From NCBI GenBank assembly GCA_021737275.1, contig JAIPEE010000013.1, forward strand, positions 1 to 64,000: 64,000 nucleotides of DNA, written 5' to 3'. The stretch's first letter is position 1; every line of letters begins with the position of its first letter. The stretch comes from Desulfobacterales bacterium. Its GTDB lineage: Bacteria; Desulfobacterota; Desulfobacteria; Desulfobacterales; JAIPEE01. The translations under genes and the position numbers were made by a program. Positions 7,936 through 53,381 of this stretch are shown here, piece after piece. The notes under the pieces were generated by a model that was not told the DNA's origin, searched no databases, and saw nothing but the letters and a program-made list of their open reading frames with translations.

Positions 7936-7974
7936 AAAAAGACAGAATGTCGTACGGACATTCTGTCTTTTTTT
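7936..7974 (+). terminator. Strong rho-independent terminator after sorting-tail gene 4
   Basis: Perfect 16-bp stem (7936-7951 with 7957-7972), 5-nt loop, continuing into a T-run. The intron remnant begins two bases after the T-run. Confidence 0.88.
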
Positions 7975-10552: not shown

Positions 10553-12337
10553 TTATGGTTTGCTAATACCCATTTTTTTAAGTTTTCGGGCCACTGTAGA
10601 TTGATTTATGCCTAAAACTTCGGCAACAGCAGCCTGTGAACCATATTGTTCTAATGCCTGTTGAAATACCTGATGTTCTACACGCTTCATTATTTCGGCC
10701 AAAGATACCTGCTCTGACCAGTCGGTTTCAAAATTTGACTGGTCATTAAATCTCTGCAGCAGATCTACAGGAAGATCAGCAACATCGATACGATTATTTT
10801 CCGACATGACTGTCATTCGCTCACAAATATTTTTCAGTTCCCTGACATTTCCCGGATAGCTGTATGCCCGAAGTGCATCAATTGCACGACGGGTAAGCTG
10901 AATCTTTTTGATGATTCCCTGCCGGGATGAAAAATTATCCATGTAATGGTTGATCAGCGGAAGGATACATTCCTGACGTTCTCTTAGCGGTGGAATATTC
11001 AGCGGAATGACATGAAGACGATAATAAAGATCCTGTCGAAAAGTACCGGCTTTGACCATTTCTTCCAGGTTCCGGTTTGTTGCAGCAATGACCCTTACAT
11101 CTAGCGTACGTAGTTTTGTTCCTCCCACACGGATTACATCGCCATCTTCCAGAAAGCGGAGAAGTTTAACCTGGGAAGAGGGTTGAAGTTCGGCAATTTC
11201 ATCTAAAAACAGGATACCCTTATCAGCCAGCTCAAAATAACCGGGTTTTCCTTTGGGATCCGCACCGGTAAAGGCACCTTTTTCGTATCCGAACAATTCG
11301 GCTTCCAGCAGGCTTTCCGGAATGGCGCCACAATTGATTTCTATCATAGGCTGCTTGCTGCGGTGGCTGTGCTTATGAATCAGTCGTGCGATCAATCCCT
11401 TTCCTACACCGGATTCTCCGGATAGAAATACGGTGGATTCAACTTCGGCGACTTTCAGGGCTTGATGCAGCGTATTAATCATACAGGTGCTTTTAGCAAT
11501 AATTTCACTTGATTGTTGTTTTTCGAGCTGCATATCCATGATGTGGCGGCGAAACTGATTCTTCATGGCTTCCTGTTCTTCAAGTTCACGGTGAAGCTTG
11601 TCAATTTCAGTAATGTCCCACTCATTGGTGATCAGGCGGATGATTTCGCCTTCGTTATTAAAGATCGGTTTTACAGTGACAGATAATTTATGGCCATCCC
11701 GCGTTCTCTGGAGCATGTTGACAACACTTTTTGTTTTAATTGACTCCAGCGCCACTGACTTATCAAGATATCCTTCTTCAACAATCTGGTGCATGTTTTT
11801 ACCAATAAACTCCCTGGCCTGAATATTGTTGATGCGTTCGGAGGATGAATTAATACGGAGAACATTGGCATCCCCGTCCATTATTACCATACCTTCACGG
11901 GAGTTTTCAAAAATTGTTTCCAGTTCCTGGCTAAGTTGTTTATGGGCATTGACCTGTTGCGCCAGTTGTATGGGAACTGTTTTGTCTTCAAGAATGCAAA
12001 GTACTCCGGCAAAGCCATCGGCATTGGAAAAAGGTTGCAGCTTAGCCTGAAAAAACCGAGTGCCTTTATGAATTGAAATACCAAATCGGCAGCATTGATC
12101 GGATAGAATTTGATCTACAACCGGGCCAAGTGACTGCAAAGTTTCTGAGATATGGAGCCCCGTTATCAAACCCAGTGTATTTCCGGCTGCGGCATTTGAA
12201 TAGCGGATGGTACCATCGGTATCCAGTATAACAACAGTATCCTGGATTGCATTGAGAATTAGAAGTAATTCCGGCGATGGGAGCGTCAGCATATCGTTTT
12301 CATTAAATACATGCGGTTGGTTTTGTCCGGGGTTCAT
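10553..12337 (-). CDS. Sigma-54-dependent activator, PAS-PAS-AAA+-Fis
   Basis: 594 aa bacterial enhancer-binding protein. Two PAS domains (about 22-120 and 135-245), a linker coiled coil (245-275), an AAA+ domain with Walker A GESGVGKG (307-314) and the sigma-54 contact loop GAFTGA (354-359), and a C-terminal Fis-type helix-turn-helix (LGINQSTVARKLKKMG). There is no receiver domain, so the signal is probably a ligand or redox cue sensed by PAS. It is divergent from gabT-sucD across 433 bp holding a -24/-12 element and a large palindrome, so it very likely activates that operon; the ligand could be GABA or a product (inference). Confidence 0.92.
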   Translation of the reverse strand: MNPGQNQPHVFNENDMLTLPSPELLLILNAIQDTVVILDTDGTIRYSNAAAGNTLGLITGLHISETLQSLGPVVDQILSDQCCRFGISIHKGTRFFQAKLQPFSNADGFAGVLCILEDKTVPIQLAQQVNAHKQLSQELETIFENSREGMVIMDGDANVLRINSSSERINNIQAREFIGKNMHQIVEEGYLDKSVALESIKTKSVVNMLQRTRDGHKLSVTVKPIFNNEGEIIRLITNEWDITEIDKLHRELEEQEAMKNQFRRHIMDMQLEKQQSSEIIAKSTCMINTLHQALKVAEVESTVFLSGESGVGKGLIARLIHKHSHRSKQPMIEINCGAIPESLLEAELFGYEKGAFTGADPKGKPGYFELADKGILFLDEIAELQPSSQVKLLRFLEDGDVIRVGGTKLRTLDVRVIAATNRNLEEMVKAGTFRQDLYYRLHVIPLNIPPLRERQECILPLINHYMDNFSSRQGIIKKIQLTRRAIDALRAYSYPGNVRELKNICERMTVMSENNRIDVADLPVDLLQRFNDQSNFETDWSEQVSLAEIMKRVEHQVFQQALEQYGSQAAVAEVLGINQSTVARKLKKMGISKP

Positions 12338-12429
12338 AATGTTCCTGTGTTTTCTTTGAAATTACAATAAATATCTGATGGTAAATACAAATATCATGAT
12401 CGCTAATTCATAACCGTTATAAATTATAT

Positions 12430-12468
12430 ATTATGCACTATTGCATTTAAAATGCAATAGTGCATAAT
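12430..12468. promoter_or_regulatory. 39-bp perfect palindrome, candidate enhancer (UAS)
   Basis: Two 19-bp arms (12430-12448 and 12450-12468) are exact reverse complements about a single central A. Each arm carries TGCACTATTGCA or its complement, itself a near palindrome, so there are four TGCA boxes. It lies about 150 bp upstream of the -24/-12 element. Best reading: binding site of the divergently encoded Fis-type activator. No T-run, so not a terminator. Confidence 0.7.
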
Positions 12469-12618
12469 TGTTGTATGTATTTTTAACGGATAGCCCAAAT
12501 TTTATTAAAAGAATACATTAAAATCAAAATGTTCTTATCCATATATTTATCTTAAATTACAGATCGTTAAATTATATTATACATCCGCTGAATGATAGTT
12601 GGCTCTTATTTATGTAAG

Positions 12619-12635
12619 CCGGCATATCTTTTGCT
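12619..12635 (+). promoter_or_regulatory. Sigma-54 (-24/-12) promoter for gabT-sucD
   Basis: CCGGCATATCTTTTGCT: GG at 12621-12622 and GC at 12633-12634, separated by exactly ten bases, against the consensus TGGCAC-N5-TTGC. Transcription would start near 12645, giving a leader of about 125 nt before the ATG at 12771. Confidence 0.7.
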
Positions 12636-12770
12636 GATTGATTTGTTCATATGTCGGCAGGTGGAACTATCCGGTAGTGTTGTTCAATTTCAACACCATT
12701 GGATCTTTCCACTATTTTTGAAATTATTAACTCCAACCAGGATTTTTTAACAGTAATAAAGGAATAGAAC

Positions 12771-14075
12771 ATGAAAACAAATAAGGATTTGATTCAGAGA
12801 CGAAATGAACATGTTTCACAGGGCCCCTATAACATTTATCCTATCTTCATTAAAAAAGCCCATGGTGCTGTTATGGTGGATGTTGAGGATCGGGAATATA
12901 TTGACTTTGCCGGTGGTATCGGGGTACTGAATGTGGGACACAATCATCCAAAGGTAGTGGCTGCTATCAAGGATCAGGCCGACAAATTTATTCATACCTG
13001 TTTTCATGTCGGAATGTATGAATCATATGTAGATCTGGCTGAGCGATTGAATGAAGTGGCTCCCGGTGATTTTCCAAAAGCAACAATGTTTCTTAATTCC
13101 GGTGCGGAGGCTGTGGAAAATGCCATAAAGGTTGCCCGGATTTCAAAAAAGCGTCCGGCAGTTATCGCTTTTGATAATGCTTTTCATGGCCGCACCCTGT
13201 TGGGTATGACCCTGACAAGTAAAATTAAACCATATAAGCATGAGTTCGGCCCCTTTGCACCGGAAGTATATCGGATGCCTTATGCTTATTGCTATCGCTG
13301 CCCATACGATCTTAAATATCCTGATTGCGGTGTGGCATGTGCGGATAAAATGGAAGACTTTTTTGCGAGCTATGTGGCTCCGGAAACCGTTGCCGCAGTG
13401 ATTGCAGAACCTATTCAAGGTGAAGGTGGTTTTATTACACCGCCGCCTGAATATTTTCCGAAACTTCAGGAGATTTCTCGGAAATACGATATTGCATTGA
13501 TAATTGATGAAGTTCAAGCCGGTTCCGGCCGTACAGGAAAATTCTTTGCCATTGAACATTGGGGCATTGAGCCGGATATTATTACAACAGCCAAGAGTTT
13601 GGCTGCCGGTATGCCACTTAGTGCGGTTACAGGCCGCAAGGAATTAATGAATGCTTCCCATCCAGGTGGATTGGGCGGAACTTATGCCGGTAATCCGCTT
13701 GCCTGTCGTGCGGGTTTGGCTGTGATGGATATATTGTTTAAAGATGGTGTTCTTGAACAGGGCAGGGTACTGGGTGAAAACCTGCAGGCACGGTTTAATG
13801 AGATGCAGTCAAAGTATGAAATAATTGGTGACGTTCGGGGTAAGGGCGCCATGCTGGCCCTGGAACTTGTTAAAGATAGAAAAACCAAGACACCGGCAAC
13901 GGATGAAGCTAAACGGATAGCTCAGTCCTGTTTTGAAAAAGGATTAATTATTCTTACTACCGGTCATTATGGCAATGTGATTCGTGTGCTGATGCCGCTG
14001 GTGATTACTGACGATCAGCTTGATAAGGGAATGAGTATACTTGAAGAGGCATTTACTGAACTGAATAAAGGTTAA
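12771..14075 (+). CDS. gabT: 4-aminobutyrate aminotransferase (class III, PLP)
   Basis: 434 aa, normal length for the family. Class-III aminotransferase features: LNSGAEAVENAIKVAR (phosphate site), the IIDEVQAGSGRTG segment with the PLP-contacting Asp, and the PLP lysine at about K275 in TTAKSLAAGMP. It should move the amino group from GABA (or a similar omega-amino acid such as 5-aminovalerate) to 2-oxoglutarate, giving succinate semialdehyde. The next gene, 51 bp away, encodes a CoA-acylating succinate-semialdehyde dehydrogenase-like protein, which favours GABA as substrate. ATG start after AAAGGAAT. Confidence 0.85.
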   Translation: MKTNKDLIQRRNEHVSQGPYNIYPIFIKKAHGAVMVDVEDREYIDFAGGIGVLNVGHNHPKVVAAIKDQADKFIHTCFHVGMYESYVDLAERLNEVAPGDFPKATMFLNSGAEAVENAIKVARISKKRPAVIAFDNAFHGRTLLGMTLTSKIKPYKHEFGPFAPEVYRMPYAYCYRCPYDLKYPDCGVACADKMEDFFASYVAPETVAAVIAEPIQGEGGFITPPPEYFPKLQEISRKYDIALIIDEVQAGSGRTGKFFAIEHWGIEPDIITTAKSLAAGMPLSAVTGRKELMNASHPGGLGGTYAGNPLACRAGLAVMDILFKDGVLEQGRVLGENLQARFNEMQSKYEIIGDVRGKGAMLALELVKDRKTKTPATDEAKRIAQSCFEKGLIILTTGHYGNVIRVLMPLVITDDQLDKGMSILEEAFTELNKG

Positions 14076-14126: not shown

Positions 14127-15488
14127 ATGAGTGAAACAGCCATAATGAAAGAGATGATGGAAAAAGCCCGTGTTGCACAACAAGCACTGGAAGCTTACGA
14201 TCAGGCTGGTGTAGACGCACTGGTTCGGGCGATCGGTAAAGCGATTTATGACAACGGAGAAGAGCTGGCCAAAGATGCGGTAGATGAATCCCGAATGGGA
14301 GATTATGAAGACAAGATACTCAAAAATAAGGGTAAGGCTAAAGCTATCTGGAACCACCTGAAAGACAAAAAATCGGTAGGCATCATTGATCGTGATGAAG
14401 AAAAGGGGCTTATCTATGTTGCTAAACCCAAGGGGGTTATTGCCTGTGTTGCACCAACAACCAATCCGACGATTACAGCCATGTGTAATGCCATGTTTGC
14501 CATCAAGGGACGTAATGCCGCTATCGTTGCACCGCATCCCCGCGCCAAAGCGGTTACCATAAAAACCTGCCGTTATATGAGTGATGCCATTGCTGAACTC
14601 GGCGGTCCTGATAATCTTATCCAGTGTATTGAAGAACCTTCCATTCCGCTTACAACTGAATTGATGAAAACAGCCGACGTGGTTGTTGCCACCGGCGGCC
14701 CGGCAATGGTAACGTCGGCTTACAGCAGCGGAAAACCATCATATGGCGTGGGCCCTGGAAATTCTCAGGCCGTTGTGGACAGGGGTATTGATTATAATAC
14801 CGCTGCACAGAAAATTATCAGGGGGCGCACATTTGACAAAGGAATTTTATGTACCGGTGACCAGTCCGTTATCGCACCTGCTGACGAATTTGATAAAGTT
14901 ATGGATGCATTAAAGGCCAATGGCGCATATTATATAGAAGATCAGGCAATCGTAGATAAATTCAGAACTGCACTTTTCAAAGACGGTCATATCAATGTTG
15001 AGGCTGTTGGAAGAAGTGTTCAGGTTCTGGCCGAGATGGCCGGGGTTGATGTTCCTGAAGATACAAAAGCGATTCTTCTGCGTTCAAATGATAAAGATGA
15101 TGATGTGCTGCGGAAGGAAAAAATGTGCATGGTCATGGTTGTCTTTAAATACGATACGATGGAAGAAGCCATTGCCATCGCCAAAAAGAACCTGCTGATT
15201 GAGGGTGCCGGTCATTCATCTGTTATTCATTCAGATAATATGGAACATATAGAAGCGATGGGTATTGCATTGCCGATCAGCCGTCTGGCCATAAATGAAC
15301 CTTGCTCTTTATCTGTAGGCGGTTCACTCGTTAACGGTTTTGCACCGACATCAACAATGGGCTGTGGTTCGTGGGGTAATAACTCAATTTCTGAAAACCT
15401 TGATTATCACCACCTGATCAACATTTCAAGGCTGGGTTTTACTTTAAAAGACAAACCAATTCCGACAGATGAAGAGATCTGGGGATAA
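14127..15488 (+). CDS. sucD: CoA-acylating succinate-semialdehyde dehydrogenase (SucD-like)
   Basis: 453 aa aldehyde dehydrogenase of the CoA-acylating (EutE/AdhE-N/SucD) group. The sequence follows Clostridium kluyveri SucD closely as I remember it: AIWNHLKDKKSVGII, VYVAKPKGV-type, CNAMFAIKGRNA, SSGKPSYGVGPGNSQ, and the end LINISRLGF...EEIWG. The catalytic cysteine is about C242 in KGILCTGDQS. With gabT it would turn GABA into succinyl-CoA, conserving the thioester instead of releasing succinate. Sulfoacetaldehyde or acetaldehyde dehydrogenases are related alternatives. Strong terminator follows. Confidence 0.82.
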   Translation: MSETAIMKEMMEKARVAQQALEAYDQAGVDALVRAIGKAIYDNGEELAKDAVDESRMGDYEDKILKNKGKAKAIWNHLKDKKSVGIIDRDEEKGLIYVAKPKGVIACVAPTTNPTITAMCNAMFAIKGRNAAIVAPHPRAKAVTIKTCRYMSDAIAELGGPDNLIQCIEEPSIPLTTELMKTADVVVATGGPAMVTSAYSSGKPSYGVGPGNSQAVVDRGIDYNTAAQKIIRGRTFDKGILCTGDQSVIAPADEFDKVMDALKANGAYYIEDQAIVDKFRTALFKDGHINVEAVGRSVQVLAEMAGVDVPEDTKAILLRSNDKDDDVLRKEKMCMVMVVFKYDTMEEAIAIAKKNLLIEGAGHSSVIHSDNMEHIEAMGIALPISRLAINEPCSLSVGGSLVNGFAPTSTMGCGSWGNNSISENLDYHHLINISRLGFTLKDKPIPTDEEIWG

Positions 15489-51029: not shown

Positions 51030-52379
<1,350 letters not shown>

Positions 52380-52405: not shown

Positions 52406-52460
52406 TTTAGATAAAAAAATGCCCTTTCGGTCTTACCGAAAGGGCATTTTTTTATCTAAA
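52406..52460. terminator. 26-bp perfect-stem terminator after gdhA
   Basis: Arms 52406-52431 and 52435-52460 are exact reverse complements with a 3-nt loop CTT; A-run on one side and T-run on the other make it work in both directions. Confidence 0.92.
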
Positions 52461-52601: not shown

Positions 52602-52676
52602 TGGAGGCGGCAATCAGATTCGAACTGATGAATAATGGTTTTGCAGACCACTGCCTTACCACTTGGCTATGCCGCC
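52602..52676 (-). tRNA. tRNA-Cys (GCA)
   Basis: Minus strand. Starts GGCGGCA, anticodon GCA within TCTGCAAA, T-arm TTCGAAT, acceptor TGCCGCC, discriminator T and an encoded CCA (52602-52604). Seventy-five bases with CCA. Confidence 0.95.
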
Positions 52677-52684
52677 AAAAAAAA

Positions 52685-52759
<75 letters not shown>

Positions 52760-52814
52760 TCAATTGGTAGCGATCTTCTACCTATTAAATTATTTTTTGT
52801 CAACAAAAAATAAT

Positions 52815-53381
52815 TTAAAATTTAAGAAGATCCCTATATTTTATAAAATAGTCCAAACCGGACCAGACCGTAAATATCAGTGCTCCCCAGAGAAACACCT
52901 GACCTATGGCATCGAAATTTATGCCAAGGTAAGGGTAATGAATCAGAAGGGGGATAATTGCTGCAATCTGAAAGCCGGTTTTATATTTGCCAAGCCAGGA
53001 TGCGGATACATCCATTTGCTTATCGGCAATAAGATTTCTAAAGCCGGTAACCAGGATTTCCCGGCCAATGATAATACATACAATCCATGCAGGTATCCAT
53101 CCGTGAGCCGTAAGCAGTATAACAGATGTGCATACCAGCAGTTTATCTGCCAGCGGGTCCATTACTTTTCCAAACTGGCTCTCCAACCCCCTGGTTCGGG
53201 CAAGATAACCGTCAAAATAATCGGTTATTGCTGCTGCACTGAATAAAAGTGCTGCCATAAACGTCAGGAACCCGTTCTTGGAGAGCATCAGCAGCATAAT
53301 TGCCGGAGTCATAGCCATTCGAAACATCGTCAGGGTGTTGGGATGGCTTGCATATTTTTTTATTTTTTCAGCCGAAGTCAT
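52815..53381 (-). CDS. pgsA: CDP-diacylglycerol-glycerol-3-phosphate 3-phosphatidyltransferase
   Basis: 188 aa membrane protein with about five helices. The CDP-alcohol phosphotransferase motif DYFDGYLARTRGLESQFGKV, ending D-P-L-A-D, has the three catalytic aspartates in D-G-x2-A-R-x8-G-x3-D-x3-D. Makes phosphatidylglycerol phosphate. Nine bases after fsa. Confidence 0.92.
   Translation of the reverse strand: MTSAEKIKKYASHPNTLTMFRMAMTPAIMLLMLSKNGFLTFMAALLFSAAAITDYFDGYLARTRGLESQFGKVMDPLADKLLVCTSVILLTAHGWIPAWIVCIIIGREILVTGFRNLIADKQMDVSASWLGKYKTGFQIAAIIPLLIHYPYLGINFDAIGQVFLWGALIFTVWSGLDYFIKYRDLLKF

Follow-up and report, generated by a model that had tools for sequence, protein, structure and literature searches.

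The DNA between a divergent sigma-54 activator (bEBP) gene and gabT-sucD very probably holds, as judged from motif matches and their conservation among relatives, both the UAS (12430-12468) and the promoter (12620-12636) through which the neighbouring bEBP would act as a local activator of GABA catabolism. Here we describe the parts of this unit in a 64,000-nucleotide stretch of a Desulfobacterales genome (the window), their conservation across the order, and the alternative readings of the operator. An earlier note on this DNA, which had proposed a sigma-54 promoter with an enhancer-like palindrome controlling gabT-sucD, is supported in outline, as a pair of operator dyads and a sigma-54 site are conserved before gabT.

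Parts of the unit

Domain matches bear out the divergent PAS-PAS-AAA-Fis activator that had been placed beside the palindrome (Table 1). The protein matches Sigma54_activat (224 bits), PAS (138-235), HTH_50 and HTH_8, and a scan limited to residues 1-130 brings out a second, N-terminal PAS domain (24.3 bits; cut-off 22.6). Its GAFTGA and Walker motifs are intact, and it possesses the features of its class, namely a sigma-54 interaction domain, GAFTGA and an HTH. Of the two genes on the other side of the gap, gabT lies above the TIGR00700 GABA-transaminase cut-off (551.1 versus 506.65 bits), and the sucD-like gene, which falls below every NCBIfam cut-off, has as its closest solved structure 8cei, a succinate-semialdehyde dehydrogenase (acetylating), at 594 bits over residues 2-453.

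Table 1. Features of the candidate regulatory unit in the window
Feature	Position	Strand	Basis
PAS-PAS-AAA+-HTH (TyrR/Fis type) sigma-54 activator (bEBP), GAFTGA motif	10553..12337	-	profile matches
Sigma-70-like promoter TTTAAA-17-TATAAT of activator gene, over dyad 1	12423..12451	-	prediction
Perfect 19+1+19 palindrome holding both operator dyads	12430..12468	.	sequence
Operator dyad 1, TATGCA-CTAT-TGCATT, 1 mismatch to TATGCA-N4-TGCATA	12432..12447	.	kept in relatives
Operator dyad 2, AATGCA-ATAG-TGCATA, 1 mismatch to TATGCA-N4-TGCATA	12451..12466	.	kept in relatives
Sigma-54 -24/-12 promoter CGGCATATCTTTTGCTG	12620..12636	+	consensus match + conservation
gabT, 4-aminobutyrate transaminase	12771..14075	+	TIGR00700
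sucD-like CoA-acylating succinate-semialdehyde dehydrogenase	14127..15488	+	closest solved structure

The gap between the activator gene and gabT measures 433 bp and contains both the palindrome and the sigma-54 site. As the earlier note had claimed, the palindrome is perfect over 39 bp (arms 12430-12448 and 12450-12468 around a 1-nt centre) and carries four TGCA boxes, at 12434, 12442, 12453 and 12461; perfect 19-bp arms with a 1-nt loop would be expected 4e-7 times in 64 kb at the composition of the window and 6e-6 times at the local composition. It resolves into two tandem 16-bp dyads of the form TATGCA-N4-TGCATA, 19 bp apart centre to centre. The distance of about 150 bp given for palindrome to promoter also holds, with 152 bp between the palindrome end and the -24 GG, and 172 bp separate the centre of the dyad pair from the promoter's -24 end. 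The GG-N10-GC at 12621-12634, with -24/-12 spacing, is present inside CGGCATATCTTTTGCT; the promoter agrees with 11 of the 12 specified positions of TGGCAYRN4TTGCW, a score equalled by 1% of 200 shuffles of the intergenic region. Transcription of gabT-sucD is predicted to start near 12646, and a sigma-54 gene is present in the genome. We discarded an IHF site between operator and promoter, for which there is one 1-mismatch match (12522-12534), a frequency no higher than chance.

These parts suggest a mechanism in which two bEBP dimers would occupy the two dyads, 19 bp apart, while the PAS region senses the substrate or its product; the parallel with GabR of Bacillus thuringiensis makes GABA or succinic semialdehyde the probable signal. 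The AAA+ domains would then assemble and reach sigma-54 polymerase at 12620-12636 via a loop of about 170 bp of AT-rich DNA, opening the promoter of gabT-sucD, whose products would convert GABA to succinic semialdehyde and on to succinyl-CoA.

Conservation of the dyad pair with gabT

The order contains further orthologs of the bEBP, and at 52 loci the analysis took in as much as 900 bp of sequence upstream of the bEBP gene. A set of gabT upstream regions was drawn from the fetched loci of bEBP-holding genomes, requiring at least 49% identity to the gabT of the window and at least 300 bp of upstream sequence; with duplicates removed it comprised 36 regions, the window included, with L209 and L210 being near-copies. 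When up to 5 mismatches in 24 positions are allowed, the dyad pair occurs before gabT in 30 of the 36 regions, compared with 1 of 1800 Markov shuffles, and a reversed-pattern control upstream of gabT gave 0 of 36. A sigma-54 match reaches at least 11/12 in 28 of the 36 (against 42 of 1800 shuffles), and 34 regions have one of at least 10/12; in the 30 regions with a pair its centre lies 72-301 bp before the promoter.

The earlier note had suggested looking for the same palindrome before orthologous operons. What recurs there is a sigma-54 site together with two TATGCA-N4-TGCATA dyads at a spacing of 18-20 bp, whereas perfect symmetry is limited to some genomes. The conserved unit is the dyad pair, and we reject the perfect 39-bp symmetry in that role. 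Full complementarity between the two N4 spacers of a pair is seen in 4 of 36 pairs (shuffle P 0.0013), or in 3 of 35 with the window left out (P 0.011), which gives a weak hint, arrived at post hoc, that pairs have recurrently been turned into perfect palindromes. At L200 (G095), on the reverse strand near 2411-2466, the dyad pair sits inside an almost perfect palindrome, about 56 bp long, that extends past the dyads.

The full pair is absent within 650 bp of gabT in six of the 36 regions. A single dyad with 0-1 mismatches precedes gabT in L150, L153 and L158; another gene, a glutamate dehydrogenase in L181 and one of the same kind by resemblance in L193, intervenes before gabT in these two loci and has the pair before it; and L216 has neither pair nor dyad before gabT. 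Several genomes hold the bEBP without an adjacent pair, for which the pair was expected before gabT instead, and 18 regions were fetched. The expected pair was found in L208-L215 (8/8), L218, L221, L222 and L223 and is missing in L216 and L225, the gabT of the latter being only 38% identical; L217, L219 and L220 offered no gabT upstream sequence that could be used, and L224 is the same locus as L150, with its single dyad. Because the pair stays with gabT where gabT and the bEBP gene are apart, the site serves gabT first.

The operator motif also found regulon members by pattern alone. Searching 389 genomes of the order for TATGCA-N4-TGCATA-N3-TATGCA-N4-TGCATA with at most 3 mismatches returned 21 places in 20 genomes, and the reversed control returned none. 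Among 20 fetched loci, one of which is the window, 12 hold both bEBP and gabT, three the bEBP, three gabT and two neither; counting the cluster aldehyde oxidoreductase as well, 19 of the 20 hold at least one of these genes. At L135 the pair lies 5' of an aldehyde oxidoreductase-like gene, named by resemblance and not by family search, which has an 11/12 sigma-54 site and is 81% identical over 415 residues to the likewise named gene that follows gabT in L189. At L130 (G302), a pair of direct-repeat character at 1501-1535, TAAGCACCATTGCATA twice, lies between unrelated genes, with no bEBP, gabT, other regulon gene or sigma-54 site of at least 10/12 at the locus. This locus, like the six gabT regions without a full pair, counts against the activator reading.

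The description of the unit as self-contained holds for its own genome (G000), which has a single dyad-pair place within 3 mismatches, and does not extend to relatives, where pairs also precede glutamate dehydrogenase, CoA-transferase or aldehyde oxidoreductase genes. Elsewhere in the same genome (L207, contig C63, 4548-4563) stands one isolated dyad, TATGCATAGCTGCATA, that matches TATGCA-N4-TGCATA perfectly. We do not count it as a second target: the class-III aminotransferase gene that it precedes is about 560 bp away, inspection by eye showed no sigma-54 site, and by our estimate one such dyad in 4.3 Mb may plausibly arise by chance.

Among the genes that adjoin the bEBP gene or gabT in relatives are aldehyde:ferredoxin oxidoreductase (L191), glutamate dehydrogenase (L181), CoA-transferase (L183) and solute-binding proteins of the DctP and Peripla_BP_6 families (L190, L192). 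In G268 the neighbours include an N-carbamoylputrescine amidase and a putrescine aminotransferase, each above the cut-off in one model, the latter without reaching a second putrescine-aminotransferase model. This gene content fits a GABA/putrescine regulon, and the unit offers a candidate regulator, operator and promoter for GABA catabolism (agmatine/putrescine in one relative) in a bacterial order rich in bEBPs.

Recognition helix and operator type

One sub-clade of the bEBP has a changed recognition helix, and its members have TATTCA-N4-TGAATA pairs at the same spacing in 7 of 7 cases. Under a strict rule, the fetched loci of the 52 bEBPs divide into 20 with TATGCA pairs, 7 with TATTCA pairs and 25 with neither; eight of these 25 were set by hand to TATGCA and the other 17 left uncounted. 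With the eight hand-set loci included, TATGCA sites go with an N/D-Q-S/A helix in 28 of 28 cases and TATTCA pairs with S-Q-P in 7 of 7. When the helix columns are left out of the tree, each trait changes a single time, both on the same branch, so this amounts to one evolutionary event and yields no independent count. Outside the ortholog set, 22 bEBPs with an SQ helix have a nearby TATTCA dyad that is better than the TATGCA one in 15 cases, worse in 2 and tied in 5, a comparison to be read knowing that TATTCA is AT-richer and therefore commoner by chance; for 13 bEBPs with NQ or DQ helices the count of 4 to 3 with 6 ties is not discriminating.

These patterns make a link between helix and operator suggestive. 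Whether they reflect a two-state code for TyrR/Fis-type bEBPs, in which N/D-Q-S/A would read TATGCA-N4-TGCATA and S-Q-P would read TATTCA-N4-TGAATA with the 19-bp pair geometry unchanged, is a question we would answer in the affirmative only tentatively, at slightly under an even chance. Were the code true, a difference of one base per half-site and about three residues in the protein would keep paralogous catabolic activators in one cell insulated, and two genomes, G273 and G279, hold both operator/helix types. The natural helix-operator pair also lets a change of bEBP specificity be examined. The window's own genome has no TATTCA pairs within 3 mismatches. On its contig C68 (L206, 1407-1512), three TATTCA-N4-TGAATA dyads with 0-1 mismatches adjoin another bEBP gene with the helix ISQASSVRK, an arrangement that agrees with the helix-operator link.

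Known systems and alternative readings

The activator's HTH matches to Pfam HTH_50 and Fis HTH_8 recall TyrR, but the protein falls short of the TyrR model, reaching 271 of the 576 bits needed. TyrR recognises the box TGTAAA-N6-TTTACA, from which the dyads here differ in letters and spacing. The best NCBIfam match is to PrdR, the proline reductase regulator of Clostridiales (NF041552; 413.6 bits, residues 131-588), far below the cut-off of 795 bits, so that the protein does not qualify as PrdR; PrdR is likewise a local sigma-54 activator of amino-acid catabolism, and its motif is TGT-N10-12-ACA as opposed to TATGCA-N4-TGCATA (PMC6615313). Both a UAS 100-250 bp upstream and local bEBPs serving one operon are standard (PMC6615313). 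The closest parallel in kind is GabR of Bacillus thuringiensis, a PAS protein that activates gabT through sigma-54, binds an inverted repeat and responds to GABA and succinic semialdehyde (PMC4279683). Like GabR at PgabT, where the inverted repeat lies upstream of a -24/-12 site (TGGCATACATTTGCA; PMC4279683), the unit here links a PAS-AAA+-HTH activator to gabT with a -24/-12 promoter. The Bacillus system differs in that its 21-bp inverted repeats, with 5 bp between them, sit close to gabT, gabR is co-transcribed with gabD, one PAS is named, and its gabD is of the NAD(P) type as opposed to the CoA-acylating sucD found here (PMC4279683). In the related bacterium Desulfovibrio vulgaris, one-component PAS bEBPs are also encoded beside sigma-54 operons, and the main text of the sigma-54 regulome study contains no TGCA, aminotransferase or aldehyde strings (PMC4641369). 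A literature search, covering result listings and selected text passages, returned no description of the motif or unit in Desulfobacterota. The kind of unit is already known elsewhere as GabR-like sigma-54 activation of gabT and is ordinary in kind.

Three other readings of the palindrome were weighed. It could be mainly autoregulatory, the bound protein blocking the bEBP's own sigma-70 promoter with activation of gabT secondary, and some autorepression is possible because the sigma-70-like promoter facing the bEBP gene overlaps dyad 1; in G268, moreover, the bEBP gene has its own pair (L160/L195) and gabT, on another contig, has another (L138). Against this, where the two genes are not divergent it is gabT, not the bEBP gene, that the pair precedes, and GabR shows no binding to its own promoter in B. 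thuringiensis (PMC4279683); we regard a mainly autoregulatory role as unlikely. Slightly less probable still is that another bEBP or a global regulator binds the site, even in a genome rich in bEBPs (58 first-look candidates) in which one other member (L204, contig C16) likewise carries an NQS helix, INQSTVVRK: across families the pair is found together with orthologs of the neighbouring bEBP, operator type tracks that bEBP's helix type, and the own genome has its one pair place only.

That the palindrome is a transcription terminator or RNA hairpin and not a protein-binding site seems scarcely credible. A terminator scan does flag it on both strands, but it lies upstream of both divergent genes, its tails TGTTGTATGT and ATATAATTTA are not T-runs, and the TGCA boxes and 19-bp spacing stay while loop and spacers vary. 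There is also no Rfam match, and on these grounds of position, tails, box conservation and Rfam result we rejected the terminator reading in favour of the operator. The palindrome is also unlike the true bidirectional-type terminator of the window at 52406-52460, a perfect hairpin with 26-bp arms, a GC core and A/T tracts on either side that lies just 3' of a glutamate-dehydrogenase-like gene (51030-52379) and is typical of its type. Elsewhere in the window, a terminator-like hairpin at 7936-7972 has 16-bp arms and a T run after it, and an AT-rich perfect palindrome at 52785-52818 (16-bp arms, 2-nt loop) adjoins a putative tRNA-like sequence at about 52605-52760.
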